A DNA stretch of 64,000 nt from Anaerostipes caccae L1-92 (GTDB taxonomy: Bacteria; Bacillota; Clostridia; Lachnospirales; Lachnospiraceae). Below the pieces are notes generated by a model. The model worked only from the letters and a program-made list of their open reading frames with translations. It did no database searches and was not told the DNA's origin. The translations under genes and the position numbers were made by a program. This document shows, piece by piece, positions 20,601 to 32,846 of this stretch (its first letter is position 1; each line of letters begins with the position of its first letter). Where the stretch lies: positions 3,323,501 through 3,387,500 of the forward strand of contig NZ_AP023027.1 in the NCBI RefSeq assembly GCF_014467075.1. The letters are read 5' to 3'.

Positions 20601-21290
20601 TTATATTTCTTTTTTCGCCTTCACAAGCGCCTGAAGCATTTCTTCAATCTTTCCTTTTCTGCTAGGAGCATTCAGGATTCCGCTTGTTCCGCCGCTTCCG
20701 TGAGCTCCGCCCACTACGACTCTGTAGACGTCGTCCCCGGTGCTCACTCCGGCAGCCTGAATGATCTTAATGTCAGGATTTACGGACTTCACTGCTTCAT
20801 TTGTAGCTTCTATGTATGCGTCATCACTTGTGCTTCCTGTTCCGATCAGGCTGGTAGGTTCACAGATCATAACATCAGGCCCAAGCTCTGCAACCGCTCT
20901 TGTCTGTTCCACTGAATCTGAGCACACGATCGTGATCATATCCAGTTCACTTGCACGTTTGATGGTCTTATCCAAGTCACACATAGAAAGCGGATGCTCT
21001 GCGTGGTTTAAGATCACACCGTCCACTCCGGCTGCTTTCAGCGCATCCGGAAGGATGAATCCCATTCCTCTTCCCGGAACTAATCCGTCCATATGCTGTG
21101 TTGTCACGATCAAATTTTTTGTCTCCTGTGCGATCTGTTTTAAGTCCACATGCTGTCCTGTAAAGATAATGTCAATGTCATATTCCTCGGCAAGCTGGTC
21201 ACAAACTTTTGCAAGTTCTAAGGATTCTTCTCCGTAAATATATGCTTTTGGATTGACGATTAAAAATGGTACTCTCAGTTCTCTCTTCAT
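20601..21290 (-). CDS. Triose-phosphate isomerase-like (TIM-barrel) protein
   Basis: 229 residues, about the size of archaeal-type TPI rather than the usual 250. Motifs: PFLIVNPKAYIYG at the start (Asn and Lys of the active site), VILNHAEHPL near 95 (electrophile His region), MICEPTSLIGTG near 145 (catalytic Glu), and a phosphate loop near VVGGAHGSGGTSG. EryH and similar TPI-like isomerases act on tetrulose phosphates, so a role on a C4 or related sugar phosphate is possible. Last gene of the copy-1 PTS operon. ATG 21290 is used because the frame upstream overlaps the YjbQ-type gene. Confidence 0.82.
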   Translation of the reverse strand: MKRELRVPFLIVNPKAYIYGEESLELAKVCDQLAEEYDIDIIFTGQHVDLKQIAQETKNLIVTTQHMDGLVPGRGMGFILPDALKAAGVDGVILNHAEHPLSMCDLDKTIKRASELDMITIVCSDSVEQTRAVAELGPDVMICEPTSLIGTGSTSDDAYIEATNEAVKSVNPDIKIIQAAGVSTGDDVYRVVVGGAHGSGGTSGILNAPSRKGKIEEMLQALVKAKKEI

Positions 21291-21307
21291 GCTTATGCCA
21301 TCCCTTC

Positions 21308-21829
21308 CTATTCGCCCATTACAATGATCTTGCATTTTCTTGTGCGGGCACGTGTGCGGTCAAAGTCTACAAAATAAACATATCCTGTGGATCCGACACC
21401 TAATTTTCCGTCTTCTACGTCAAACACCTGGCTGGAGCCAAGAAGTGTTGCTTTCAGATGTGCGTCGCAGTTCCAGAGGGCTTTTCTGTCCCCGTCCGGA
21501 AGATATTCTGCAGCGTTCGGCCATGCCTCCACAGCCTCATAATGTTTTTCTCCCGGATAAATGTAGAGATCTTTAGAATCCTGATTTGGAATGATCTTTT
21601 CAAGCACATTGTTTAAATCTTCCTGGAGAAATTCATCCCCTGCCTCATTATAATCATGTACAAATTCTTCAAAGAAAACAGAGCAGGTTGTGTGAGGTGA
21701 GATGACGGTACAGGTTCCGCTCTTGATTCCGCTGTTTTTGATTGCTTCCTTTACCTGAGGGGTGATATCCAGGTAAGTCGGTGTCGTGCCATGAGAGTTC
21801 AGGCTGATTTGTTCTTTATATACGGTCAT
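21308..21829 (-). CDS. YjbQ/UPF0047-family protein
   Basis: 173 residues, longer than the usual 130-140 because of an insertion in the middle (about 75-125). The family's metal-binding residues are visible in SPHTTCSVFFEE near 44 and NCDAHLKATLLGSS near 120, and GKLGVGSTGYVYFVDFD ends the barrel. Some members show weak thiamine-phosphate synthase activity; physiological function is unsettled. Here it sits between a class II aldolase and a TPI-like gene in a PTS operon, hinting at a carbohydrate-phosphate role. AAGGAGG precedes the ATG. Confidence 0.88.
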   Translation of the reverse strand: MTVYKEQISLNSHGTTPTYLDITPQVKEAIKNSGIKSGTCTVISPHTTCSVFFEEFVHDYNEAGDEFLQEDLNNVLEKIIPNQDSKDLYIYPGEKHYEAVEAWPNAAEYLPDGDRKALWNCDAHLKATLLGSSQVFDVEDGKLGVGSTGYVYFVDFDRTRARTRKCKIIVMGE

Positions 21830-21858
21830 TATTGATTATCCTCCTTACAGCTTGGAAA

Positions 21859-22695
21859 TTAAGCTTCCCTTGTTTCAAATACTGCATAATAGTGTTCCAG
21901 ACATTTCTGCATTCCCTGTTTTGACAATGCCTTTACATCCAGATACGTTTTCGGTTTATTATTGTCAATCTCCTCTTTTGCGGCCACTAACAGGTCAGAG
22001 AAGATATTTATTTTCGTAATTCCATTTGTTGCACAGCGGTTTAAGTTTTCATCTCCTGATGAAGATCCTCCGTGAAGGACAAGCGGAGTGTCAACAGCCG
22101 CAGCAATTTCTTTCAGTCTGTCAAAATTGATTTCCGGAATGCCTTTATACATTCCATGTGCTGTACCGATAGAGATCGCAAGTGAATCCACACCTGTCTC
22201 TTCGGCAAACTTCTTTGCCTCTTCTACAGTTGTATACTGAGAATCGGATGTCTCATGGTTCTCATAGTTTTCACCGGCTCCCACATGGCCGATTTCTGCT
22301 TCCACTACCACTCCCTTTGGATGTGCATAGTCGATGATATCCTTAGTTTTTCTTACATTTTCTTCAAAAGTATCCTGTGAAGCGTCAATCATGACAGAAG
22401 AAAATCCAAGATCGATTGCTTTTTTGATCACTTCCGGTGTAGTTCCGTGATCCAGATGAAGTACAACCGGTACTTTTGCTTCCTCGGCATATTTCTTTCC
22501 TACCAAAGCAGCATCTTCCAATGTAATATTTTCTCCGATATGTGCCTCAGCCAGTGCAAGGATCAGCGGGAGATTATGTCTTTCGGCTGTTTCCACATGC
22601 CAGTGGAGAGACTCAAGATCAATAAAGTTTGGTGCAGGGATCGCGAATTTCCCTTCCTGTGCTTTTTTAAACAGTTCCTTTGAAGTTACAAGCAT
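21859..22695 (-). CDS. Class II fructose/tagatose-bisphosphate aldolase family protein
   Basis: 278 residues. Zinc-dependent aldolase fold: PVVLHLDHGTTPEVIKKA (zinc histidines and catalytic Asp, near 80), EAEIGHVGAGEN near 132 and LVLHGGSSSGDENLNRC near 205. Closest in style to GatY/KbaY. It would release DHAP from a ketose phosphate. It lies downstream of the SAF-domain oxidoreductase of PTS copy 1, after a strong hairpin; copy 2 has no such gene. AAGGAGG precedes the start. Confidence 0.9.
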   Translation of the reverse strand: MLVTSKELFKKAQEGKFAIPAPNFIDLESLHWHVETAERHNLPLILALAEAHIGENITLEDAALVGKKYAEEAKVPVVLHLDHGTTPEVIKKAIDLGFSSVMIDASQDTFEENVRKTKDIIDYAHPKGVVVEAEIGHVGAGENYENHETSDSQYTTVEEAKKFAEETGVDSLAISIGTAHGMYKGIPEINFDRLKEIAAAVDTPLVLHGGSSSGDENLNRCATNGITKINIFSDLLVAAKEEIDNNKPKTYLDVKALSKQGMQKCLEHYYAVFETREA

Positions 22696-22718
22696 CTTCT
22701 CTTTCCTCCTTAATTGAG

Positions 22719-22768
22719 AATGTCTCAGAGGTCAGGTCCGTCAGACAAACACAGACCTCCGGGACATC
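22719..22768 (-). promoter_or_regulatory. Intercistronic hairpin between oxidoreductase and aldolase genes
   Basis: AATGTCTCAGAGGTC (22719-22733) and GACCTCCGGGACAT (22754-22767) pair over about 14 bp with G-U pairs. There is no U run, so processing, stability control or partial attenuation between PTS genes and aldolase genes is more likely than termination. Confidence 0.5.
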
Positions 22769-22796
22769 TTCTTCCTGTTCTGTTCCTGCTATGAAA

Positions 22797-24116
22797 CTAT
22801 AAAACGTTTCTTCCGTACATTGCGTCCTGTTCTTTTCTCAGCTGGTAGATCAGGGTAGACTTATCTAATTCCACATCATCGTATGTTAAGAGTTCACCCT
22901 TCTTCACATCTCTCTTCATCACTGCCTTGTTTGTTACAAGTCCGAACGGTACGTATCCCTTCGCATCAGATTCTTTTGCTTCTGCGATAGATCCATGTGT
23001 TGTGAATCCTCCGATTCCATCGATGGTCTGGCCTGCTTTCAGGTCGATCTTCGCTCTTGTAATACACTCTGATACTAATCCGTCGATCGGTACACAGGTA
23101 ACCTCTCCGTCGATGACTGCTTTCGCTACCGTAAGCGGTGTCTCTAAGTTACATAAGTGGTATGGACGGTATAAGGTCCAAAGCGGTCCAGGTCCCATGC
23201 TGTGGTATGCCATCTGGTATGCGATCTCTTCGTTCGGTGTGGATACCGTTACGAATACTCCAGGAGCAACTCCGTTTACATACTCTACAACTCCATGTTT
23301 GTTTAAGATTCCGCCGTCTTTCTTAAGCTTCAGGATATCATTCAGCTCTTTGATTCCTTCTGTTCCCGGTGAAGTCTGTGGTCCGTGTCCTCCGATCACA
23401 TCAGGAACTAATCCTGTGTAGTTGGACATGGCTGTCATCTCTACCATCGTCTTTGTTCCGTCTTTGAATGCACAGAGCATCTTTGGACTCATGACTCTTC
23501 TGGTTGCTTCTTCTAATACAGTATCCGGATTGCAGTCATAGTCCAGTTTGTTGTTCTTTCCTTTACCCATGACTTCTACGTTCATTCCCATGGCTTTTGC
23601 AAAGCTGTAAAGTTCCATAACAGCTCCCGGCTCATCTCCAGCGGATCCTGTGTAGATGACACCTTCTTTTGCTGCCAGTTTCTTTAAATATGGCCCGATA
23701 ACAACGTCAGTCTCAACGTTTAACATAACCACATGTTTTTTGTTCTTCATTGCATCAGTTGCGACTTTTGCTCCTACATCCGGCACACCGGTTGCATCGA
23801 TCGCACACTCTACCAGGTTTGCCTGAGATACGAAGTTTGCGTCCTCACAAGCAACATATTTTCCTGCTTCCATTGCTGCGTTGGCATCTGCAAGAGTTTT
23901 TGCAATCGCAATGTCGTCTTCTTTTACACCGGCATATTTGAATGCATTGACTGCATTTTCAACTTTGATATCAGATACGATAGCCGGCATCATACCGTTC
24001 ATCAATACCATCTGGGTTACCATTCCGCGTCCCATCTGGCCGGCTCCTACGATACCGGTTTTAATGATCTGTCCGTCTTCCTGTCTCTTGATCAGTTTTT
24101 TGTCCATGTTTAACAT
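22797..24116 (-). CDS. NAD(P)-binding oxidoreductase with C-terminal SAF domain (COG4091-like), copy 1
   Basis: 439 residues. N-terminal Rossmann fold with GIVGAGQMGRGMVTQ near residue 23, a homoserine-dehydrogenase-like middle (CAIDATGVPDVGAKVA, AGDEPGAVMELYSFAKAMG) and a SAF-type C-terminus (VTNKAVMKRDVKKGELLTYD). Biochemical role is not established for the group. Downstream of glucitol-type PTS genes it plausibly oxidises the imported polyol phosphate to a ketose phosphate. As I read it, the protein equals copy 2 (27898-29217) at every residue, whereas the DNA differs at many third positions. AAGGAG lies 9 bases before the ATG. Confidence 0.85.
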   Translation of the reverse strand: MLNMDKKLIKRQEDGQIIKTGIVGAGQMGRGMVTQMVLMNGMMPAIVSDIKVENAVNAFKYAGVKEDDIAIAKTLADANAAMEAGKYVACEDANFVSQANLVECAIDATGVPDVGAKVATDAMKNKKHVVMLNVETDVVIGPYLKKLAAKEGVIYTGSAGDEPGAVMELYSFAKAMGMNVEVMGKGKNNKLDYDCNPDTVLEEATRRVMSPKMLCAFKDGTKTMVEMTAMSNYTGLVPDVIGGHGPQTSPGTEGIKELNDILKLKKDGGILNKHGVVEYVNGVAPGVFVTVSTPNEEIAYQMAYHSMGPGPLWTLYRPYHLCNLETPLTVAKAVIDGEVTCVPIDGLVSECITRAKIDLKAGQTIDGIGGFTTHGSIAEAKESDAKGYVPFGLVTNKAVMKRDVKKGELLTYDDVELDKSTLIYQLRKEQDAMYGRNVL

Positions 24117-24157
24117 AACATCAATCTCCTTAAATTCTATGTATGATTGTTAGATTG

Positions 24158-24526
24158 TTACCTGATTTCAATCGTGCCGCCGGCTTTCAAGTCCTCCGGC
24201 AGCAATGCACTGCCTTCCAGCATAATGCATCCCGGGCGCTCCGGCTCGGTTCCGCCCTTAAAGCTTAATGTACAATGTCCAAGTTCCTTTAAGGTATGCG
24301 GTGCTTCACTTCCTACGGCGCTGATTGTAAACTCTTTGCCGCAGATCGTCATGGTGTCTCCTGCCGCAGGTTCTTCTGTCAGCTCAGCTTTTGTATGTAA
24401 GACTGACAGTTCAGCAAGCTCCGGCGGTGCATCTTCATTGAATATAATGATAAAGTTCATATCGGCATCTGAGAGGAACGCTAATGCGTCCGGTCCTAAG
24501 CCTGTGATGGTTGACTGATATTTCAT
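24158..24526 (-). CDS. srlB: PTS EIIA, glucitol/sorbitol type, copy 1
   Basis: 122 residues. Phosphocarrier that passes phosphate from HPr to the EIIB domain of SrlE. Typical features are NFIIIFNEDAPPELAELSVLHTK near residue 27 with the likely phosphorylated His, and HTLKELGHCTLSFKGG near 85. ATG 24526 gives the same length and N-terminus as copy 2; a longer frame to 24547 would start before the GGAGGG site. Differs from copy 2 at scattered positions. Confidence 0.9.
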   Translation of the reverse strand: MKYQSTITGLGPDALAFLSDADMNFIIIFNEDAPPELAELSVLHTKAELTEEPAAGDTMTICGKEFTISAVGSEAPHTLKELGHCTLSFKGGTEPERPGCIMLEGSALLPEDLKAGGTIEIR

Positions 24527-24564
24527 AGGTTCGTCTTTACCCTCCATTTTTGCTTCTATACTTC

Positions 24565-25557
24565 TTAGTACATTCCAATACTGAATGCGAATGCAATCAA
24601 GACTGCCAAAGGTCCGGTTACGATTCTTGAGAATAATACGGCCGGAACACCCATCTCAATGGTCTCTGGCTCTGATTCTCCAAGACTCAGTCCAACTGGT
24701 ACGAAGTCGGCACCAACCTGTGCATCGATAGCAAACAGTGCAGGCAGTGCATACTGCGGCGGAATGTTTCCAAGGGCAAACTGTGCTCCCAAAAGAGTTC
24801 CGACTACCTGTGCGATAACGGCTCCAGGTCCAAGGATCGGGGATAAGAACGGCAGGGCACACACGAAGGAGATACCGAGCATTCCGGGTAAGGTACTGCA
24901 CAGTGGGGAAATCGTCTTTGCGATGACATTTCCTAATCCGCTGGCACTGATGATACCTAAAAGGGTACTCGTAAATGCCATGAACGGCAGCACGTTTTTA
25001 ATGATCATCTCGATGGTCTCACGGCCGGCCTGGAAAAACTTGCTGACGACGTTTCCAACGCCTTTTCCGATCTTAACGATGATTCCTTCTTTTTTGCCGC
25101 TGTTTGCAGCTGCGATTTCTTCTTTCGCCTGGTCTTTGCTTTTCGGTTCATCTGCTGCAGCCGGTTTGGTCGAAGCTGCATCTCCTTTATAATCAGATTC
25201 AAAGATATTTTTTTCTGTCACTGCGGATACATAGATCTCCGGAGTGATAAACTGTGCGAGCGGTCCTGCCTGCCCTACCGGCATCAGATTGACGGTAAAG
25301 ATTCCTTTCTTCGGGTAAACGCCGCATCTTGCGGTTCCTCCGCAGTCCACTACGGCGACCAGCACTTCCTCGTCCGGCGCTGTTGTCTTAAATCCGTCTA
25401 ACGCTTCTCCGCCGGTCATATCTGCGATCTTCTGAGCCACCGGGTGAATTCCTCCGCCGGTTACACTTAAGATCTTGTGGCATTTTACCGTTGCGGTGAT
25501 TGTTAATGGTCCGCCCCATCCGCCGTCTCCGGCCTTAATCGTAATTGTTTTATACAT
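24565..25557 (-). CDS. srlE: PTS EIIBC, glucitol/sorbitol type, copy 1
   Basis: 330 residues. The EIIB domain (1-110) carries the phosphorylated Cys in DCGGTARCGVYPKKG near residue 78. After a linker rich in Ala/Lys (about 120-150) comes a membrane half with NVLPFMAFTSTLLGI, FVCALPFLSPILGPGAVIAQVVG and DFVPVGLSLGESEPETIEMG. It works with SrlA (EIIC part) and SrlB. Differences from copy 2 cluster in the linker. GGGGGAT precedes the start. Confidence 0.93.
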   Translation of the reverse strand: MYKTITIKAGDGGWGGPLTITATVKCHKILSVTGGGIHPVAQKIADMTGGEALDGFKTTAPDEEVLVAVVDCGGTARCGVYPKKGIFTVNLMPVGQAGPLAQFITPEIYVSAVTEKNIFESDYKGDAASTKPAAADEPKSKDQAKEEIAAANSGKKEGIIVKIGKGVGNVVSKFFQAGRETIEMIIKNVLPFMAFTSTLLGIISASGLGNVIAKTISPLCSTLPGMLGISFVCALPFLSPILGPGAVIAQVVGTLLGAQFALGNIPPQYALPALFAIDAQVGADFVPVGLSLGESEPETIEMGVPAVLFSRIVTGPLAVLIAFAFSIGMY

Positions 25558-25575
25558 ACTGGATCCCCCTTTCTG

Positions 25576-26097
25576 TTACTTGCTTGCTTTTCCGGTCATT
25601 CTGAAGTAGATCTGCTCTGTCAGCAGTCCACGGATCAGGATAACGATTACACCGACGATAAAGTATCTCACCGCAAGTCCTCCGATAGACAGGCCAAGCT
25701 TCGTGATACCGGCTGAGATACCGGTGTATACGAACAGTTCACCGGGGTTCGCATGTGGGAAAAGTCCGGTAACAGGATGTACAAAACTTACACAGGAGTC
25801 ATAATAAGCAGGTTTGTATTTTTCTTCTACGAAACGTCCGAAGGTATAGCACATCGGGTTTCCTAAGAACAGCACCGCGATGATCGGGAGCAGCGTATAG
25901 CGGAGTACTGCAAATCTGGTCAGCTTCTGCGCGAAGCGTTCCACCCTCTCTTCTCCGATCAGCTTGATCACTGAGTTAACAGCTGTCATCAGGCAGACAA
26001 CCAATGGAATGATTCCGGTAACCCATCCCATAAATGTGGTGCCGCCCTCCTGGAATAGCTTAATAAATCCGTTGGCAGCGTTAGATATAATTTCCAT
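25576..26097 (-). CDS. srlA: PTS EIIC, glucitol/sorbitol type, copy 1
   Basis: 173 residues with about four transmembrane segments. GFIKLFQEGGTTFMGWVTGI at the N-terminus and GNPMCYTFGRFVEEKYKPAY near 80 are typical of SrlA. It forms the sugar channel with the SrlE membrane half. Only three or four residues differ from copy 2. AGAAGGAGG precedes the start, and a 158-base non-coding leader separates it from gutM. Confidence 0.93.
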   Translation of the reverse strand: MEIISNAANGFIKLFQEGGTTFMGWVTGIIPLVVCLMTAVNSVIKLIGEERVERFAQKLTRFAVLRYTLLPIIAVLFLGNPMCYTFGRFVEEKYKPAYYDSCVSFVHPVTGLFPHANPGELFVYTGISAGITKLGLSIGGLAVRYFIVGVIVILIRGLLTEQIYFRMTGKASK

Positions 26098-26255
26098 ATC
26101 TTTTCCTCCTTCTTACTAAAAGTTGATTTGATCTATATATAGAAGAAACTAGCAGATGAATTTTGAAGAAAAGGAAAACCGATTATTGTTTCCGGGCCCT
26201 TAGAAACTTGCATAAGTTTTACTCTCTTCAGCCGTTCTATATATCTTGTTTCAGA
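26098..26255 (-). ncRNA. Candidate cis-acting structured RNA upstream of srlA, copy 1
   Basis: Non-coding stretch inside the operon. Outer stem ATATATAGAA (26135-26144) pairs perfectly with TTCTATATAT (26235-26244). On the transcript an inner hairpin GTTTC/GAAAC presents a loop with AAGGGCCCG (GGGCCC at 26194-26199). The same arrangement with different stem bases occurs before srlA of copy 2 (31169-31346), although the rest of the sequence has diverged. Whether it is a regulator or only a conserved leader is unproven. Confidence 0.45.
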
Positions 26256-26663
26256 TTACAAGGTATTTCCCTGAAATCTCATATCCAAAGCTTCTAAAGC
26301 TCTGATATATCCTTTGTAATATTTCCGTCTCTTTTTCTCAAAGTTTCTGACTTCGTCAAGGTACTCATAAATACTCGTTCCGACGAGTTCCTTTCCCAGA
26401 AACTCAGAGATTGGTTTGAACTTTGTCAGGAAGCTTAATCCTTCCATGATCTCCCCGCCGGTGATCACTCCGTTCTGGTCACAGGCGATCATCACAATGT
26501 TTCCTGAAAGCAGCCTCCCTTTCTTCTGGCCGATTCCGACATTCCCAAGCTTATGTACCCTCCTTACCGCTCTGCGGTAATCCTTCACCTGAAAATATCC
26601 CCCGACAGCCTGAACAACAAACAATACGAAAATCACTAATAAAAAAACCGAAATACCATTCAT
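26256..26663 (-). CDS. gutM: GutM-family regulator, copy 1
   Basis: 135 residues. One N-terminal membrane segment (VFLLVIFVLFVVQAVGGYFQ) then a basic region KDYRRAVRRVHKLGNVGIGQKKG and a soluble part ending near ALEALDMRFQG. GutM was described as an activator of the enteric glucitol operon; the membrane anchor makes its mechanism unclear. First gene of the leftward copy-1 operon; promoter at 26771-26799. Confidence 0.87.
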   Translation of the reverse strand: MNGISVFLLVIFVLFVVQAVGGYFQVKDYRRAVRRVHKLGNVGIGQKKGRLLSGNIVMIACDQNGVITGGEIMEGLSFLTKFKPISEFLGKELVGTSIYEYLDEVRNFEKKRRKYYKGYIRALEALDMRFQGNTL

Positions 26664-26733
26664 ACAGTTTGGCTCCTTTCATTTAACGTTCCGTGGTGTA
26701 TTCTTCATCTTTTGTTTTGTCTCATCCTCTCCA

Positions 26734-26746
26734 GTTACATATGTGC
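26734..26746. promoter_or_regulatory. Operator-like site 1, GTTACATATGTGC
   Basis: One of three near-identical sites containing ACATATGT in the 251-base gap between gutM1 and the divergent SorC-type regulator. It lies downstream of the gutM1 promoter start point. Confidence 0.5.
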
Positions 26747-26770
26747 TTATTAATTACTTTTGTTAACTTC

Positions 26771-26799
26771 ATTATAATCACTTTACATATGTTCGTCAA
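26771..26799 (-). promoter_or_regulatory. Predicted promoter of the copy-1 PTS operon
   Basis: Minus-strand TTGACG (26794-26799), 17-base spacer, TATAAT (26771-26776). Operator-like site 2 (26782-26794, TTTACATATGTTC) fills the spacer, so a bound regulator would block RNA polymerase. Confidence 0.7.
26782..26794. promoter_or_regulatory. Operator-like site 2, within the gutM1 promoter spacer
   Basis: TTTACATATGTTC shares the ACATATGT palindrome with sites 1 and 3. Its position between -35 and -10 favours repression by the adjacent SorC-type regulator. Confidence 0.5.
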
Positions 26800-26827
26800 T
26801 ACTAAAATATATTTTTTCACAAAAACC

Positions 26828-26856
26828 TTGAAAACCCTGAATAAATGGCTTATAAT
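26828..26856 (+). promoter_or_regulatory. Predicted promoter of the copy-1 SorC-type regulator
   Basis: TTGAAA (26828-26833), 17-base spacer, TATAAT (26851-26856), 58 bases before the ATG. Confidence 0.65.
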
Positions 26857-26870
26857 CCTCTTATCATATA

Positions 26871-26883
26871 GTTACATATGTGC
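26871..26883. promoter_or_regulatory. Operator-like site 3, GTTACATATGTGC
   Basis: Identical to site 1 and just downstream of the regulator's -10 box, as expected for autorepression. Confidence 0.5.
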
Positions 26884-26914
26884 CTTAATAAATTCATGAT
26901 CGAGAGGTTACCCT

Positions 26915-27850
26915 ATGAAGAAGAAAGAAAATCCAGATAATATGCTGGACAAGATCGTTCTGGTTGCAACTCTGTATTATAAGAACAAGCTGTCCCAGCA
27001 GGAAATTGCAAAAAAATTAAGTATCTCAAGGCCCTGGGTCTCCAAGCTTTTGTCCAGGGCAGAAGACCTTGGCATCGTAAAGATAGAAATCAATTCCCCT
27101 GTAACCGGAAACAGCCAGCTTGAGGAAGCACTAAAAGAAAAATACGGCTTAAGTTATGCAGGCGTCATCAGCACAAAAGATCAAAACAGAGATTATGTAG
27201 CACAGGCTGCCGCGGATTACTTCATCTCACAGCTGAAGCCAAAGGACATTGTTGGTGTGGGCTGGGGAAATGCCGTGTCCCGTTTTATTAAAGAACTGCA
27301 TCCCATCAGCTTTCCGGATGTACAGACTGTCCCTCTGGCCGGAAGCTTCGGTGAATCCTTCGAGGCGCTTCCCACCTATAACACTCTCCAGCTGGCAAAT
27401 ACCATCGGCGGAACCGCAAAAATGCTTCACATTCCTGCCTTTTGTTCTTCCAAAGAAGAATATGAAACCCTGATCTCCAATGAACACACACGGCAGATCC
27501 TTAATTTGGGTGAACATGCGGATATTCTCCTCATGGGTCTGGGAAGTTTTGAATCAACGATTCTCACCTGCTACAACATTTTGAATGATCAGGAGATCGC
27601 GGAACTGAAAGCTGCACACGCCATCGGTGATGTGGCCCTTCAGTTCCTCACCAGAGAAGGTGAAACTGTAGAAACTGAGGCAACAAAACATCTAATCAAA
27701 GCAGATATCTTTAAGGCTGCCAAAAATGCACGGGTTTCCATCGGTGTAGCCGACGGACTCCACAAAGTACAGATCATTGATGTAGCCTTGAATTTAAAGC
27801 TCGTCAATTCGTTTTTTACAGACGAAGAGACGGCTTTGGCGCTGGTTTAA
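26915..27850 (+). CDS. SorC-family transcriptional regulator, copy 1 (divergent)
   Basis: 311 residues. N-terminal helix-turn-helix KLSQQEIAKKLSISRPWVSKLLSRA (recognition helix near 35-50) and a C-terminal sugar-phosphate-binding domain of the NagB/RpiA-like fold with VGVGWGNAVSRFI near 110 and LLMGLGSFES near 210. SorC proteins respond to phosphorylated sugars or polyols. It points away from gutM1 and its gap holds three ACATATGT sites. Its ribosome site (GAGAGG) is modest. Only distantly like the copy-2 regulator. Confidence 0.9.
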   Translation: MKKKENPDNMLDKIVLVATLYYKNKLSQQEIAKKLSISRPWVSKLLSRAEDLGIVKIEINSPVTGNSQLEEALKEKYGLSYAGVISTKDQNRDYVAQAAADYFISQLKPKDIVGVGWGNAVSRFIKELHPISFPDVQTVPLAGSFGESFEALPTYNTLQLANTIGGTAKMLHIPAFCSSKEEYETLISNEHTRQILNLGEHADILLMGLGSFESTILTCYNILNDQEIAELKAAHAIGDVALQFLTREGETVETEATKHLIKADIFKAAKNARVSIGVADGLHKVQIIDVALNLKLVNSFFTDEETALALV

Positions 27851-27854
27851 GCAC

Positions 27855-27883
27855 AAAAGGAGCCTTACAGCAAGGCTCCTTTT
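27855..27883. terminator. Bidirectional terminator between regulator 1 and PTS copy 2
   Basis: AAAAGGAGCCTT (27855-27866) pairs perfectly with AAGGCTCCTTTT (27872-27883) around a 5-base loop, with T runs both ways. It lies 5 bases after regulator 1 and 15 bases after the copy-2 oxidoreductase stop. Confidence 0.9.
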
Positions 27884-27897
27884 TAATTTTGTACTGA

Positions 27898-29217
27898 TTA
27901 TAAAACGTTTCTTCCGTACATAGCGTCCTGCTCTTTTCTCAGCTGGTAGATCAGAGTAGACTTATCTAATTCCACATCATCGTATGTCAAGAGTTCACCC
28001 TTCTTCACGTCTCTCTTCATCACTGCCTTGTTTGTTACAAGTCCGAACGGTACATATCCCTTCGCATCAGATTCTTTTGCTTCCGCGATAGATCCGTGTG
28101 TTGTGAATCCTCCGATTCCGTCGATGGTCTGGCCTGCTTTCAGGTCGATCTTCGCTCTTGTAATACACTCAGATACTAATCCGTCGATCGGTACACAGGT
28201 CACTTCTCCGTCGATGACTGCTTTTGCTACCGTAAGCGGTGTCTCCAAGTTACATAAGTGGTATGGACGGTATAAGGTCCAAAGCGGTCCAGGTCCCATG
28301 CTGTGGTATGCCATCTGGTATGCGATCTCTTCGTTCGGTGTGGATACGGTTACGAATACTCCAGGAGCAACTCCGTTTACATACTCTACAACACCATGTT
28401 TGTTTAAGATTCCGCCGTCTTTCTTAAGCTTCAGGATATCATTTAATTCTTTGATTCCTTCGGTTCCCGGTGAAGTCTGTGGTCCGTGTCCTCCGATCAC
28501 ATCCGGTACTAATCCTGTGTAGTTAGACATGGCTGTCATCTCTACCATCGTCTTTGTTCCGTCTTTGAATGCGCAGAGCATCTTTGGACTCATGACTCTT
28601 CTGGTTGCTTCTTCTAATACAGTATCCGGGTTGCAGTCATAGTCCAGTTTGTTGTTCTTTCCTTTACCCATGACTTCGACGTTCATTCCCATAGCTTTTG
28701 CAAAGCTGTAAAGTTCCATAACAGCTCCGGGCTCATCTCCTGCGGATCCTGTATAGATGACACCTTCTTTTGCTGCCAGTTTCTTTAAGTATGGCCCGAT
28801 TACGACATCAGTCTCAACGTTCAGCATAACCACATGCTTTTTGTTCTTCATGGCGTCAGTAGCGACTTTTGCTCCTACATCCGGCACACCGGTTGCGTCG
28901 ATGGCACACTCTACCAGGTTTGCCTGAGATACGAAGTTTGCATCTTCACAGGCAACATATTTTCCTGCTTCCATTGCTGCGTTGGCATCTGCGAGAGTTT
29001 TTGCAATCGCTATGTCGTCTTCTTTTACACCCGCATATTTGAATGCATTGACTGCATTTTCAACTTTGATATCAGATACGATAGCCGGCATCATGCCATT
29101 CATCAATACCATCTGGGTTACCATTCCGCGCCCCATCTGGCCGGCTCCTACGATACCGGTTTTAATGATCTGTCCGTCTTCTTGTCTCTTAATCAGTTTT
29201 TTGTCCATATTTAACAT
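27898..29217 (-). CDS. NAD(P)-binding oxidoreductase with C-terminal SAF domain (COG4091-like), copy 2
   Basis: 439 residues, translating to the same protein as copy 1 by eye, including the Rossmann GAGQMGRG and the C-terminal DVKKGELLTYDDVELDK. Many codons differ silently, so this is not a very recent exact duplication or an assembly duplicate. It is the last gene of the copy-2 operon: no aldolase, YjbQ or TPI-like gene follows, so its product presumably relies on the copy-1 downstream enzymes. Confidence 0.85.
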   Translation of the reverse strand: MLNMDKKLIKRQEDGQIIKTGIVGAGQMGRGMVTQMVLMNGMMPAIVSDIKVENAVNAFKYAGVKEDDIAIAKTLADANAAMEAGKYVACEDANFVSQANLVECAIDATGVPDVGAKVATDAMKNKKHVVMLNVETDVVIGPYLKKLAAKEGVIYTGSAGDEPGAVMELYSFAKAMGMNVEVMGKGKNNKLDYDCNPDTVLEEATRRVMSPKMLCAFKDGTKTMVEMTAMSNYTGLVPDVIGGHGPQTSPGTEGIKELNDILKLKKDGGILNKHGVVEYVNGVAPGVFVTVSTPNEEIAYQMAYHSMGPGPLWTLYRPYHLCNLETPLTVAKAVIDGEVTCVPIDGLVSECITRAKIDLKAGQTIDGIGGFTTHGSIAEAKESDAKGYVPFGLVTNKAVMKRDVKKGELLTYDDVELDKSTLIYQLRKEQDAMYGRNVL

Positions 29218-29238
29218 AACAACTATCTCCTTTTTTAA

Positions 29239-29607
29239 TTAACAGATTTCAATTGTTCCGCCGGCCTGAAGGTCTGCCTCTGTAAGTTTATTTCCTTCCA
29301 GCATGATGCATCCCGGGCGTTCCGCCTCACTGCCCCCTTTAAAACTCAGAGTACAGTGTCCTAACTCTGCCAAAGTGTGAGGAGCTTCACTGCCCACGGC
29401 GCTGATCTTAAACTCTTTGCCGCAAATCGTCATAGTGTCTCCGACTTCCGGCACAGCCCTTAATTCAGCCTTCGTATGAAGGACAGAAAGTTCTGCCAGT
29501 TCAGGCGGTGCATCTTCGTTAAAAATGATAATAAAGTTCATATCTTCATCGGCCAGGAACGCCAGAGCATCCGGTCCCAGACCTGTGATGGTTGACTGGT
29601 ATTTCAT
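29239..29607 (-). CDS. srlB: PTS EIIA, glucitol/sorbitol type, copy 2
   Basis: 122 residues, same start and length as copy 1. Compared with it, changes include LADEDMN for LSDADMN and a different region around residues 50-60 and 105-115. The NFIIIFNEDAPPELAELSVLHTK and GHCTLSFKGG segments are kept. GGAGG lies about 13 bases before the ATG, as in copy 1. Confidence 0.9.
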   Translation of the reverse strand: MKYQSTITGLGPDALAFLADEDMNFIIIFNEDAPPELAELSVLHTKAELRAVPEVGDTMTICGKEFKISAVGSEAPHTLAELGHCTLSFKGGSEAERPGCIMLEGNKLTEADLQAGGTIEIC

Positions 29608-29629
29608 ATGTTTCTTTTTACCTCCGTTT

Positions 29630-30625
29630 TTAGTACATTCCGATACTGAAGGCGAATGCGATCAATACGGCTAAAGGTCCGGTTACGATTCTTGAGAATA
29701 ATACGGCCGGAACACCCATTTCGATGGTCTCTGGCTCTGATTCTCCAAGGCTTAATCCTACCGGTACGAAGTCGGCACCAACCTGTGCATCGATAGCAAA
29801 CAGTGCTGGCAGTGCATACTGCGGCGGGATGTTTCCAAGGGCAAACTGTGCTCCCAAAAGAGTTCCGACTACCTGTGCGATAACGGCTCCAGGTCCAAGG
29901 ATCGGAGACAAGAACGGCAGGGCACACACAAAGGAGATACCAAGCATTCCCGGCAAGGTACTACATAATGGAGAGATCGTCTTTGCGATGATATTTCCTA
30001 ATCCGCTGGCACTGATGATACCCAAAAGGGTACTCGTAAATGCCATGAACGGCAGCACGTTTTTGATGATCATCTCGATGGTCTCACGGCCGGCCTGGAA
30101 GAACTTGCTGACAACGTTTCCAACGCCTTTTCCGATCTTAACGATGATTCCTTCTTTTTTGCCGCTGTTTGCAGCTGCAATCTCTTCTTTCGCCTGGTCT
30201 TTGGATTTTGGTCCGTCCTCTGCGGCTGCCGGTTTGGCTGTTTCCGTTACACCTTTATAGTCAGATTCCACGATACATTTTTCTGTCACTGCGGACACGT
30301 AAATCTCCGGAGTGATAAACTGTGCGAGCGGTCCTGCCTGCCCTACTGGCATCAGATTGACGGTAAAGATCCCTTTCTTCGGGTAAACGCCGCATCTTGC
30401 GGTTCCCCCGCAGTCCACTACGGCGACCAGCACTTCCTCGTCCGGCGCTGTTGTCTTAAATCCGTCTAACGCTTCTCCGCCAGTCATATCTGCGATCTTC
30501 TGAGCTACCGGGTGGATTCCTCCGCCGGTTACACTTAAGATCTTGTGGCATTTTTCTGTTGCAGTGATTGTCAGGGGTCCTCCCCAACCGCCGTCTCCGG
30601 CTTTGATCGTAATTGTCTTATACAT
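29630..30625 (-). CDS. srlE: PTS EIIBC, glucitol/sorbitol type, copy 2
   Basis: 331 residues. EIIB Cys in DCGGTARCGVYPKKG and the same membrane half as copy 1. The linker at about 115-145 is the divergent part (CIVESDYKGVTETAKPAA) and carries one extra residue. ATG 30625 is chosen because GGAGGAGG lies just ahead and the N-terminus then equals copy 1. Confidence 0.93.
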   Translation of the reverse strand: MYKTITIKAGDGGWGGPLTITATEKCHKILSVTGGGIHPVAQKIADMTGGEALDGFKTTAPDEEVLVAVVDCGGTARCGVYPKKGIFTVNLMPVGQAGPLAQFITPEIYVSAVTEKCIVESDYKGVTETAKPAAAEDGPKSKDQAKEEIAAANSGKKEGIIVKIGKGVGNVVSKFFQAGRETIEMIIKNVLPFMAFTSTLLGIISASGLGNIIAKTISPLCSTLPGMLGISFVCALPFLSPILGPGAVIAQVVGTLLGAQFALGNIPPQYALPALFAIDAQVGADFVPVGLSLGESEPETIEMGVPAVLFSRIVTGPLAVLIAFAFSIGMY

Positions 30626-30646
30626 ACTCTTTCCTCCTCCCACAGA

Positions 30647-31168
30647 TTATTTGTTTGTTTTTCCTGTCATTCTTAAGTAGATCTGCTCTGTCAGCAGTCC
30701 ACGGATCAGAATAACGATCACACCGACGATAAAGTATCTCACGGCAAGTCCTCCGATGGACAGGCCAAGCTTCGTGATACCGGCTGAGATACCGGTGTAT
30801 ACAAACAGTTCGCCGGGGTTTGCATGTGGGAAAAGTCCGGTAACAGGATGTACAAAACTTACACAGGAGTCATAATAAGCAGGTTTGTATTTCTCGTCTA
30901 CGAAACGTCCGAAGGTATAGCACATCGGGTTTCCTAAGAACAGCACCGCGATGATCGGAAGCAGTGTATAGCGAAGTACTGCAAATCTGGTCAGCTTCTG
31001 TGCGAAGCGTTCCACCCTCTCTTCTCCGATCAGCTTGATCACTGAGTTAACGGCTGTCATCAGGCAGACAACCAGTGGGATGATTCCGGTAACCCATCCC
31101 ATAAATGTGGTACCGCCCTCCTGGAATAACTTTATAAATCCATTGGCAGCGTTAGATATGATTTCCAT
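30647..31168 (-). CDS. srlA: PTS EIIC, glucitol/sorbitol type, copy 2
   Basis: 173 residues, nearly identical to copy 1 with changes at EEK/DEK and in the last residues (YLRMTGKTNK). Four membrane segments. GAAGGAGGAG precedes the start. The long leader before it resembles the one in copy 1. Confidence 0.93.
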   Translation of the reverse strand: MEIISNAANGFIKLFQEGGTTFMGWVTGIIPLVVCLMTAVNSVIKLIGEERVERFAQKLTRFAVLRYTLLPIIAVLFLGNPMCYTFGRFVDEKYKPAYYDSCVSFVHPVTGLFPHANPGELFVYTGISAGITKLGLSIGGLAVRYFIVGVIVILIRGLLTEQIYLRMTGKTNK

Positions 31169-31346
31169 ATTTTCTCCTCCTTCTTAATTGAAATATATCA
31201 ATTTATCCTATATATATAAAATATTTACAGACAAAATTCCCAAAAAAGAAAAACCAATCTAAAACATGCTTTTGGGCCCTCAAAACAAGTTCAGTCAGTC
31301 TTCTTTTTGCAGTCTTGTCAGTCTATATATATATTCCAAAGCAATG
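31169..31346 (-). ncRNA. Candidate cis-acting structured RNA upstream of srlA, copy 2
   Basis: Between gutM2 and srlA2. Outer arms TATATATATA (31209-31218) and TATATATATA (31324-31333) are complementary, and an inner hairpin with GTTTT/AAAAG arms presents GAGGGCCC (GGGCCC at 31274-31279). Order and spacing parallel copy 1, while most other bases differ. AT-rich arms pair easily by chance, so confidence is limited. Confidence 0.42.
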
Positions 31347-31754
31347 CTAAAGGGTCGTCCCCTGAAGCCTCATATCCAAAGCTTCCAGCGCCCGGATATA
31401 TCCTTTGTAATATTTTCTTTTTTTCTTATCCATTCCCCGGAATACATCCAGGTGTTCATAAATACTCGTTCCCACCATCTCCTTGTCAAGAATCTTGGTG
31501 ATCGGTTTAAACTTGGTAAGGAAACTCAGTCCCTCCATGATTTCCCCTCCGGTGATGATACCGCTGCTGTCACACGCGATCATCACAATATTTCCCGAAA
31601 GAAATCTTCCCTTCTTCTGGCCGATCCCGACGTTTCCAAGCTGATGAACTCTCCTCACCGCTCTGCGGTAATCCTTAACCTGAAAGTATCCCCCTACAGC
31701 CTGCACAACAAACAATACAAAGATAACTAATAAAAATACCGAAATTCCCTGCAT
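31347..31754 (-). CDS. gutM: GutM-family regulator, copy 2
   Basis: 135 residues. Same N-terminal membrane segment and KDYRRAVRRVHQLGNVGIGQKKG basic part as copy 1; the stretch around 98-118 (ILDKEMVGTSIYEHLDVFRGMDKKK) is the most changed. It lies 19 bases after the copy-2 regulator and is co-directional with it, unlike copy 1. Confidence 0.87.
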   Translation of the reverse strand: MQGISVFLLVIFVLFVVQAVGGYFQVKDYRRAVRRVHQLGNVGIGQKKGRFLSGNIVMIACDSSGIITGGEIMEGLSFLTKFKPITKILDKEMVGTSIYEHLDVFRGMDKKKRKYYKGYIRALEALDMRLQGTTL

Positions 31755-31773
31755 CTTTAAATGTACCCCTTTC

Positions 31774-32739
31774 TCATAACAGCTTTTCAGCGCACTCGTT
31801 ATTTGTGATCAGCATATTGACATACCCTCCGCGGATGGCTCCCTTCACGGCTTCCGCCCGGTTGGCGCCGCCTGCAATGGCAATACGGTTTCTGATCTTT
31901 TTAATCATCGGGAATGTCATTCCCGCAACTCTCTCGTTAAACTGCTGAAACGGTTCCGCATTTCCTTCTTTGTCAAAGAACTGAAGGGCAATGTCCCCTG
32001 CAACTCCCTGCTCGACATACTGGTCCATCTCCTCCTTGGTCAAGTAACCCGCCTGGATCAGGGTGGAGCCTCCGCTTTGAGGAATTCCCACTCCCATGAC
32101 GATGGTGTCCAGCTTCTTAAAATCTTCAAAAATATAGTTCACAGACTTTTCTTTTAAAAAGTATTCCATGACCTTCCGTTCAGAAAAAACCGCCGGTGAA
32201 AGAAACTGGGTGTAAGTCCCGCCAAATTTCTTTGCAAATTCCTTTGCGATCTGATTGGCCTGCACATCTACTTTTGAAACAGTTCCCTGGCTGACTCCGC
32301 CGAGGATCGGGACGAACATATAGTGATTCTCCTTAGAAAATGCACGGTTGGTGCGGGCTACGTTGTGCAGGGTGAATCCCATGGAAACCCCTATGTAATC
32401 CCCGTCCTTAAAATACTGTGAAAGAAACAGTGCCGCCTTCTCATACAGCCTGGATATGGAATCTGTCTTTGTGTCCAGCGGGCTGCTCTCTACTACGACA
32501 ACTTCCTTTAAACCATATTTTCGTTCCAGTGCTTTTTCCAGCTTGCCATACGAAAACTGTACCGGATTGATGACTTCGACTCTTACGATACCGCTTTCCT
32601 TGCCTTTCTGAAGCATTCTTGAAACCGTTGCTCTGGAAATCCCAAGGTAATCGCTGATATCCTGCTGCTTCATATCATCTTCATAATATAAGCTGCAGCA
32701 TTTGTAAATCAATCTCCAATCATCCACTATCTTTTTCAT
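31774..32739 (-). CDS. SorC-family transcriptional regulator, copy 2
   Basis: 321 residues. Helix-turn-helix KQQDISDYLGISRATVSRMLQKG near residues 25-48 and a sugar-binding domain with DGDYIGVSMGFTLHNVA near 118 and DTIVMGVGIPQSGG near 215. ATG 32739 has AGGAG 7 bases ahead; a longer frame exists to 32769. First gene of the copy-2 operon, so it controls its own transcript. Sequence is far from the copy-1 regulator, implying the two loci answer to different signals. Confidence 0.88.
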   Translation of the reverse strand: MKKIVDDWRLIYKCCSLYYEDDMKQQDISDYLGISRATVSRMLQKGKESGIVRVEVINPVQFSYGKLEKALERKYGLKEVVVVESSPLDTKTDSISRLYEKAALFLSQYFKDGDYIGVSMGFTLHNVARTNRAFSKENHYMFVPILGGVSQGTVSKVDVQANQIAKEFAKKFGGTYTQFLSPAVFSERKVMEYFLKEKSVNYIFEDFKKLDTIVMGVGIPQSGGSTLIQAGYLTKEEMDQYVEQGVAGDIALQFFDKEGNAEPFQQFNERVAGMTFPMIKKIRNRIAIAGGANRAEAVKGAIRGGYVNMLITNNECAEKLL

Positions 32740-32846
32740 ATGTTTTCTCCTGTTTGTATGAATGCCCATCCCATGATGCCATAAATTGTATTAATTATCA
32801 TGCAATAACTCTATCAAAATCTTAAATCTTTATCAATGCAATTTCG

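Follow-up and report, generated by a model that had tools for sequence, protein, structure and literature searches.

A 64,000-nucleotide stretch of the Anaerostipes caccae L1-92 genome (contig NZ_AP023027.1, positions 3,323,501 to 3,387,500; here called the window and numbered from its first letter) carries two tandem gene cassettes in which a glucitol (Srl)-type phosphotransferase system (PTS) is followed by an oxidoreductase gene, here termed DRL. Placed by its residues and its similarity to characterized proteins, this oxidoreductase belongs with DXR-II, the alternative 1-deoxy-D-xylulose 5-phosphate (DXP) reductoisomerase. We consider it moderately probable that the locus serves the catabolism of 2-C-methyl-D-erythritol (ME), or of a closely related branched compound, with the DXR-II reaction running backwards. 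Family memberships, gene linkage, residues and genome content were computed; from these we infer the substrate, the direction, every step after DXP and the role of the YjbQ protein as a ketose-phosphate isomerase.

An earlier note on this DNA had described two GutM-IIC-IIB-IIA-oxidoreductase sets in the same order, only the first of them continuing with a class II aldolase, a YjbQ-family protein and a protein resembling triosephosphate isomerase (TPI, also TIM). All of these genes are present and the observation is confirmed. Its interpretation was partly supported and sharpened: sequence comparison favors a polyol-phosphate pathway fed by a PTS, where the oxidoreductase stands in for the dehydrogenase SrlD and the aldolase and TPI-like steps would feed glycolysis.

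Assignment of the oxidoreductase to DXR-II

Copy 1 of DRL (22797..24116, minus strand), the proposed MEP-to-DXP oxidoisomerase, matches the Pfam family DRL_cat (PF21135) with 203.1 bits at a cut-off of 27. Its relatives in the PDB at E ≤ 0.001 are solely 3upl and 3upy (338 bits, residues 4-436), the latter being the Brucella DXR-II (PMC3847144). As given in that source, the DXR-II family comprises 53 sequences, 11 of which were functional by complementation, while four tested members of the sister families DLO1 and DLO2 failed (Carretero-Paulet et al. 2013, PMC3847144). The tested DXR-II enzymes make 2-C-methylerythritol 4-phosphate (MEP), a branched C5 compound, and the residues named for the family in Brucella numbering are Lys191, Lys193 and Thr229 for the substrate, His250, and Arg320 for the dimer (PMC3847144). 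They correspond to K185, K187, T223, H244 and R317 of the window protein.

For comparison, the relatives were grouped by their score to the window DRL (group 1, at least 600 bits; group 2, 400-600; group 3, 300-400; most distant, below 300), and one group-1 sequence shorter than 380 amino acids was left out of the alignment. The Thr229 equivalent is kept throughout groups 1 (79/79), 2 (22/22) and 3 (15/15) and in none of the five most distant proteins. The His250 equivalent is kept in 79/79, 7/22, 14/15 and 0/5 proteins, respectively. The window protein shares the DRL_cat domain, a full-length alignment and the equivalents of Lys191, Lys193, Thr229 and Arg320 with Brucella-type DXR-II, but it differs in its tandem copies within polyol-PTS operons, in the additional presence of a canonical DXR-I in the genome, in an NAD-type Asp in place of Ala-Arg-Arg and in the proposed direction from MEP to DXP.

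This assignment replaces the SAF-domain label of the earlier note, as Pfam gives DRL_cat and no SAF match. A COG4091-type homoserine dehydrogenase was rejected as well, DRL_cat being the only match in Pfam and no NCBIfam family being found, both at E ≤ 0.001. That SrlD is missing held for the locus, where the open reading frame list and the Pfam and NCBIfam scans revealed no SrlD-type gene among the cassette genes; it did not hold for the host genome, which has one at ~2.20 Mb beside another Srl-type PTS (424.6 bits, cut-off 304). Plain sorbitol was rejected as substrate, since the SrlD-type gene sits at that other locus.

The nature of the oxidoreductase also bears on a C4 polyol (erythritol or threitol), which had initially been thought possible. 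In its favor, the locus encodes a TIM-family isomerase, which erythritol and threitol routes also use. However, the DXR-II reaction requires its substrate to be a branched C5 compound, and a better candidate for C4 polyols in the host is an Srl-type PTS locus at ~2.50 Mb. With tested DXR-II enzymes producing the branched C5 compound MEP, we set a C4 polyol aside as highly improbable for this DXR-II-type oxidoreductase. The locus at ~2.50 Mb (L155, 4942-11905) combines its Srl-type PTS with two Fe-ADH_2 genes (glycerol-1-phosphate-dehydrogenase-like) and an RpiB-type isomerase.

In Rossmann enzymes, an Asp at the end of the second strand usually favors NAD, a small residue plus Arg NADP. This end corresponds to position 49 of DRL and reads Ala-Arg-Arg in the Brucella enzyme. 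Defining a copy as linked if it lies within 8 kb of PTS IIB/IIC or of either downstream module (described below), we found Asp-49 in 92 of 93 linked copies, the exception being L100. The 23 unlinked copies carry Asp (17), Ser or Asn (5) or a gap (1); restricted to those with at least 3 kb on both sides, seven have Asp and three do not (Fisher p = 0.0026, uncorrected for kinship). All five Ser/Asn-49 copies come from genomes without DXR-I, and G298, one genome without DXR-I, harbors both a PTS/ThDP-linked Asp copy (L132; ThDP, thiamine diphosphate) and an Asn-Arg copy (L134). The operon-linked copies thus have an NAD-type Asp, which we count in favor of a catabolic role as a prediction from the residue.

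Gene neighborhoods and genome content

The compared loci comprised the best 80 of 398 named relatives, 36 stretches from a sample of the phylum and six records from a plasmid collection; neighbors were counted within 8 kb of DRL, and genes were assigned with a reference panel. The phylum sample held 44 DRL places, two of them being the window itself, 36 entering as stretches and four (G339, G199, G174, and G296) being covered by named loci; the remaining two, G362 on a contig of 3.7 kb and G080 with a partial match of 117.6 bits, were excluded.

The earlier note had proposed a comparison of gene order across genomes, with a rare linkage of PTS and oxidoreductase speaking against its idea. PTS IIB/IIC genes were found near DRL in 64 of the 80 group-1 loci, many of which lie on short contigs (IIA alone in seven), and in 37 of the 39 loci with at least 7 kb on both sides; the linkage is far beyond chance. 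At least two of the aldolase, YjbQ and TPI genes accompany DRL in 38 of the 80 and in 22 of these 39 loci. In parallel, a ThDP-dependent complex was detected in none of the 80, fructose-6-phosphate aldolase (FSA) in three and transketolase in eight. Group 2 (n = 22) showed PTS genes in 14, the ThDP complex in 13, FSA in 12 and the aldolase/YjbQ/TPI module in no locus, and group 3 (n = 15) PTS genes in eight, the ThDP complex in six, kinases in four and the module in one. None of these neighbors appeared beside the five most distant relatives. L. innocua carries the arrangement SorC-DRL-GutM-IIC-IIB-IIA.

Counting the window, 36 loci contain DRL, aldolase, YjbQ and TPI together, arranged in nine different orders or orientations. 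On a DRL tree (quickly built and weakly resolved in places), the module label changes 17 times compared with 33.4 times in shuffles. By this measure the module is clustered on the tree, yet it appears to have been repeatedly gained or lost.

The host genome (3.59 Mb, one contig) encodes a canonical DXR-I (503 bits) as well as IspF; because of this DXR-I, its DRL is not needed for biosynthesis. A DRL match is present in 39 of the 398 sampled genomes of the phylum, six of them having the distant kind only. DXR-I accompanies it in 23 of the 39 and is missing from 16; 15 of the latter have IspF and no HMG-CoA reductase, and the remaining one, G244, shows the reverse. Within group 1, DXR-I is missing from 31 of 50 tested genomes and IspF is kept in 27 of those 31, IspF being the sole later MEP gene tested and draft genomes possibly missing genes. 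Therefore, the DRL subfamily is the DXR candidate of these genomes, and it probably interconverts DXP and MEP, judged by gene content. Some of the group-1 genomes without DXR-I have their DRL away from PTS genes (L106 and L112), as expected of a biosynthetic copy. For Finegoldia magna, DXR-II activity was shown, and the passage on this organism in PMC3847144 gives no other MEP or mevalonate genes as found.

Two genomes illustrate the contrast. Selenomonas sp. F0473 (G199/L084) has a single DRL match, 77% identical and located beside YjbQ, TPI, aldolase and PTS genes; with IspF present and neither DXR-I nor HMG-CoA reductase, this DRL is its only MEP-making candidate. G244 has HMG-CoA reductase and lacks both DXR-I and IspF, and its 45% identical DRL (L143) lies together with an Srl PTS, the E1 alpha, E1 beta and E2 genes of a ThDP complex and the YjbQ/TPI/aldolase set, all within 9 kb. 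In such a polyol-PTS locus, DRL can hardly be biosynthetic, as far as the gene content indicates. Taken together, the two genomes argue that DRL would interconvert DXP and MEP and that its role in the operons would be catabolic.

The same data bear on isoprenoid supply as the purpose of the locus, with the PTS salvaging ME as MEP and DRL acting as an auxiliary or regulated DXR in the biosynthetic direction. Such a role agrees with the many relatives that have no DXR candidate besides DRL, some of these copies being in PTS loci. In contrast, the G244 copy sits in a PTS locus of a genome without IspF, the host already has DXR-I, the linked copies show the NAD-type Asp, and salvage would work without an aldolase, YjbQ, TPI or ThDP complex. 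We regard isoprenoid supply as improbable.

A proposed catabolic route through DXP

In the route that we propose for ME catabolism, ME would be imported by the Srl-type PTS and thereby become MEP, which DRL would convert into DXP in reverse of the biosynthetic DXR step, and DXP would then be cut into central metabolites. The sorbitol PTS of Salmonella reportedly transports 2-C-methyl-D-erythritol, to go by the title of a 2004 report by Testa et al. The PTS part corresponds in its GutM, IIC, IIB and IIA components and their order to the Srl/Gut sorbitol operon of the E. coli type, but has DRL in place of an SrlD-type dehydrogenase and regulators of the SorC family.

Cleavage of DXP may follow either of two downstream modules. 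In the host genome, YjbQ would shift the keto group of DXP from C2 to C3 and the TPI-like enzyme from C3 to C4, yielding 5-deoxypentulose 1-phosphate, which the class II aldolase would split into dihydroxyacetone phosphate (DHAP) and acetaldehyde. Considered chemically, the two one-carbon shifts from C2 to C4 match two putative isomerases followed by a DHAP-type aldolase, so that the module would fit DXP. In many relatives, a ThDP/lipoyl complex akin to pyruvate and acetoin dehydrogenases may instead convert DXP into acetyl-CoA and glyceraldehyde 3-phosphate: DXP (CH3-CO-CHOH-CHOH-CH2OP) is an acyloin, and a ThDP-dependent E1 with a lipoyl E2 would therefore cut it as in acetoin dehydrogenase.

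The three proteins of the first module conform to their families. The class II (FBP-type) aldolase (21859..22695, minus strand; PF01116, 294 bits) reached the TIGR00167 subfamily (234.3 bits, cut-off 215.6) and no equivalog cut-off, its metal and catalytic residues D82, H83, E134, H180 and H208 being invariant among 43 sequences. The YjbQ protein (21308..21829, minus strand; 173 amino acids), a putative ketose-phosphate isomerase, is a longer form matching TIGR00149 in two stretches (77 bits, cut-off 67.75); 32 residues, four of them His, are invariant among 58 sequences. The second putative ketose-phosphate isomerase (20601..21335, minus strand; conserved-start ATG probably at 21290) matches NF003302, the archaeal-type TIM model, with 184.9 bits (cut-off 132), and K30, H111 and E159, invariant in 57 sequences, align to the catalytic Lys, His and Glu of archaeal TIM. 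The comparison with EryH made in the earlier note is thus partly apt. As with the EryH/LerI-type tetrulose-phosphate isomerases, a TIM-family protein with the catalytic Lys/His/Glu lies by polyol genes; different from these, it fits the archaeal-type model, is paired with YjbQ and has no tetritol genes in its cassette. The aldolase step resembles that of the 5-deoxyribose/DHAP-shunt aldolases in the proposed class II-type cleavage of 5-deoxypentulose 1-phosphate to DHAP and acetaldehyde, but differs in the context of the aldolase family and in a substrate that would derive from methylerythritol.

The role of YjbQ had been left open by the earlier note. In the literature, an E. coli vitamin B6 block is reportedly relieved when YjbQ is overexpressed, through a route not yet solved, and the protein is listed as being of unknown function (PMC7954711); elsewhere it is counted as a thiamine-phosphate condensing enzyme (PMC5613172). 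Searched separately in the 398 genomes, YjbQ and the TPI-like protein were found in the same 12 genomes and adjacent at 13 of 13 places. DRL is present in just four of these 12 genomes. At five loci (L206, L207, L212, L213, and L214) the pair accompanies aldolase and Gat-type PTS genes and has no adjacent oxidoreductase, and at L208 it accompanies ABC transporter, FGGY kinase, Zn-dehydrogenase and SIS genes; the gene lists used here covered L215 and L220 in part and did not include L216-L219. These varied contexts therefore point to a general ketose-phosphate module that is not reserved for methylerythritol.

One of the Gat-type loci is a second aldolase-YjbQ-TPI set in the host itself (~2952582-2957000; L214, 9071-15931), with a PRD/EIIA-type regulator and no adjacent oxidoreductase; it looks like a further locus for ketose phosphates built on this module. 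As a speculation, such Gat-type loci might take up 1-deoxyxylulose itself. At L209-L211, the YjbQ-TPI pair is followed by an SIS-domain gene and an epimerase-like gene (named by eye), with neither DRL nor an Srl PTS. In addition, a protein of ~95-112 amino acids with a CxxC-type start region recurs beside DRL or beside the aldolase/TPI/YjbQ set, e.g., at L206 (10144-10431; no Pfam match) and, in similar form, near DRL in L119, L120, L123, L125, L128, and L130.

DXP could also be the product and have a different fate, with direct cleavage by the aldolase into hydroxyacetone and glycolaldehyde phosphate and other tasks for the TPI-like and YjbQ proteins. Such a retro-aldol reaction is chemically direct, and FSA, a known user of hydroxyacetone, replaces the module in some loci. 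However, FBP-type class II aldolases yield DHAP from ketose 1-phosphates, genes that the products would require are missing from the locus, and the tie between YjbQ and TPI at all 13 sampled places would be left aside. Direct cleavage is accordingly considered very improbable.

In subgroups other than that of the host, rhizobia included, DRL often precedes the second downstream module. Sinorhizobium americanum, S. meliloti Rm41 and Rhizobium sophoriradicis combine an ABC transporter, a SorC-type regulator, DRL and the E1 alpha, E1 beta, E2 and E3 genes in one region, to which a sugar kinase is added in the former two. The DRL locus of S. fredii NGR234 (unannotated) is similar, and the published DXR-II list includes an NGR234 sequence that is presumably the DRL of this locus (PMC3847144). 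In Rhizobium sp. L51/94, Nitratireductor and Pseudoroseomonas, the order DRL-E1 alpha-E1 beta-E2 occurs with Srl-type PTS genes; the same order was found in Aminobacter, with an E2 above the acetoin-dehydrogenase cut-off (404.7 bits vs. 307). In Phyllobacterium zundukense, DRL follows an ABC transporter and is not accompanied by the complex. Of the seven alphaproteobacterial loci among these that were picked from 55 records, six have the complex beside DRL. Priestia shows an MFS transporter and an FGGY kinase together with DRL and E1/E2/E3 genes. The arrangement resembles the acetoin dehydrogenase operon (AcoABCL) in placing a ThDP-dependent E1 and a lipoyl E2 (and E3) after a gene for making a methyl-acyloin; different from it, the complex is absent from the window and found beside DRL in other subgroups, and most of the scanned E1 and E2 resemble those of pyruvate dehydrogenase. 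The scanned E1 alpha and E2 proteins are mostly of this type, two of them just below the cut-off (386.6 vs. 393.85 and 443.4 vs. 445), and the 26 listed PDB matches of one DRL-linked E1 alpha are pyruvate, branched-chain or 2-oxo-acid dehydrogenases.

Several findings weigh against ME catabolism by this route. Many relatives have neither known downstream module near DRL, and for the 34 group-1 genomes without the aldolase/YjbQ/TPI module at the locus (L117 being left out of this search), a long YjbQ was found elsewhere in 14 and nowhere in 20. YjbQ stands without an adjoining TPI match at L086 and L225, which are exceptions from outside the 398-genome sample to the otherwise strict pairing. 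Most scanned E2 proteins fit models of pyruvate dehydrogenase better than those of acetoin dehydrogenase, and the His250 of Brucella is kept in just seven of the 22 group-2 proteins. The coenzyme split is not clean either, as the solitary copies L123, L125 and L128 are Asp-Arg and Asp-49 occurs in 17 of the 23 unlinked copies as well as where DRL is the only DXR, e.g., in Selenomonas F0473. Furthermore, an ATP-dependent kinase is described as phosphorylating ME in Salmonella (PMC3994034), which counts against direct phosphorylation of ME by the PTS in that organism.

The FSA genes beside 12 of the 22 group-2 DRL genes also count on this side, as they fit a pentulose-phosphate product, and in Ligilactobacillus an Srl PTS, DRL, FSA and transketolase lie side by side. 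Together with the transketolase near eight of the 80 group-1 genes and the YjbQ-TPI pairs next to SIS and epimerase-like genes, they speak for D-apiitol or another C5 polyol as the substrate, where a hydroxymethyl-branched tetritol phosphate would be converted by the same retro-aldol/aldol chemistry into a pentulose 5-phosphate for the pentose phosphate pathway. A pentulose 5-phosphate, however, would make both the aldolase/YjbQ/TPI module and an acyl-forming ThDP/lipoyl complex superfluous; moreover, tested DXR-II enzymes make MEP, and many relatives are the only DXR candidate of their own genome. Such a substrate therefore appears unlikely.

If the catabolic use of ME is true, the committed step of bacterial isoprenoid synthesis becomes a feeding route, the occurrence of DXR-II alongside an ordinary DXR, or in bacteria lacking the MEP pathway, is explained, and butyrate-type gut bacteria and rhizobia gain a new carbon source. 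The purpose of the scattered DXR-II genes and the function of YjbQ would thereby become two directly testable questions. More tentatively, much of the DXR-II family may be catabolic, with gut, rumen, soil and nodule bacteria eating ME (via Srl-PTS or via ABC transporter and kinase) and perhaps free 1-deoxy-D-xylulose (via Gat-type PTS), both leading to DXP that would be cut by a ThDP-dependent “DXP dehydrogenase” or by YjbQ, TIM and aldolase; on this reading, the YjbQ family would act as ketose-phosphate isomerases. Among the open-licence papers listed in the literature searches, none was about methylerythritol catabolism, which is weak evidence of novelty.

Layout and regulation of the two cassettes

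Both cassettes are read from the minus strand, cassette 2 as SorC2-GutM-IIC-IIB-IIA-DRL from 32769 down to 27898 and cassette 1 as GutM-IIC-IIB-IIA-DRL-aldolase-YjbQ-TPI from 26663 down to 20601, with the plus-strand regulator SorC1 between them. Pfam and NCBIfam scans covered cassette 1 and both regulators, while the cassette 2 genes were assigned by their identity to cassette 1. Within cassette 1, the IIC (25576..26097; NF049923, 238.2 bits, cut-off 150) and IIB components (24565..25557; NF049924, 470.4 bits, cut-off 400) reached the curated cut-offs for the Srl (glucitol) PTS. IIA (24158..24547; PF03829, 109 bits, cut-off 25) and the GutM-like protein (26256..26663; PF06923, 88.3 bits) exceeded the Pfam cut-offs and fell below those of NCBIfam (78.5 bits vs. 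165 and 47.9 bits vs. 148, respectively).

The cassette 2 counterparts are a GutM-like protein (31347..31754; 85% identical to copy 1, itself PF06923), IIC (30647..31168; 98% identical, and PF03608 with 262 bits in the genome search), IIB (listed frame 29630..30643, the ATG matching copy 1 being at 30625; 97% identical), IIA (29239..29607; 85% identical) and DRL copy 2 (27898..29217). The host genome has six Srl-type IIC genes, two of which are these. The two DRL proteins are 100% identical, their genes differing at 55 positions that are all synonymous (dN 0, dS 0.21), compared with 85-98% identity for the other protein pairs. IIA and GutM are far more diverged than DRL (IIA dS saturated, GutM dS 1.45), and the IIB and IIC proteins are nearly identical. 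From this uneven divergence, the tandem pair is a mosaic, which suggests gene conversion or a strong constraint on DRL within 22797-31754. A. hominis shows the same two arrangements on two contigs (L038 and L039), and the nearest named DRL matches are those of A. hominis BG01 (100% identity) and Anaerostipes sp. Marseille-Q3525 (93%).

The regulator SorC1 (26915..27850, plus strand; PF04198, 166.8 bits) is divergent from cassette 1 and is followed by a terminator-like hairpin (27855..27883, plus strand; 12-pair stem and T tail, a consensus match only). SorC2 (31774..32769, minus strand; PF04198, 208.6 bits, and helix-turn-helix matches) is the first gene of cassette 2. The divergent gap between SorC1 and GutM of cassette 1 (26664..26914) contains three copies of ACATATGTAA (26735-26744, 26783-26792, and 26872-26881), one of them within a promoter spacer; they are the only matches in the window, where 0.10 would be expected. 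Promoter-like sites with 11 of 12 matches to the consensus, consensus matches only, lie on both strands of this gap. These pattern matches suggest that the two cassettes may be regulated separately. No RNA element was detected at the gathering score between 20000 and 34000. Upstream of the cassettes, a class III aminotransferase gene (PF00202; 33163-34812) adjoins that of a 123-amino-acid protein without a Pfam match; among the DRL neighborhoods, such an aminotransferase is represented by a single weak match (L111).

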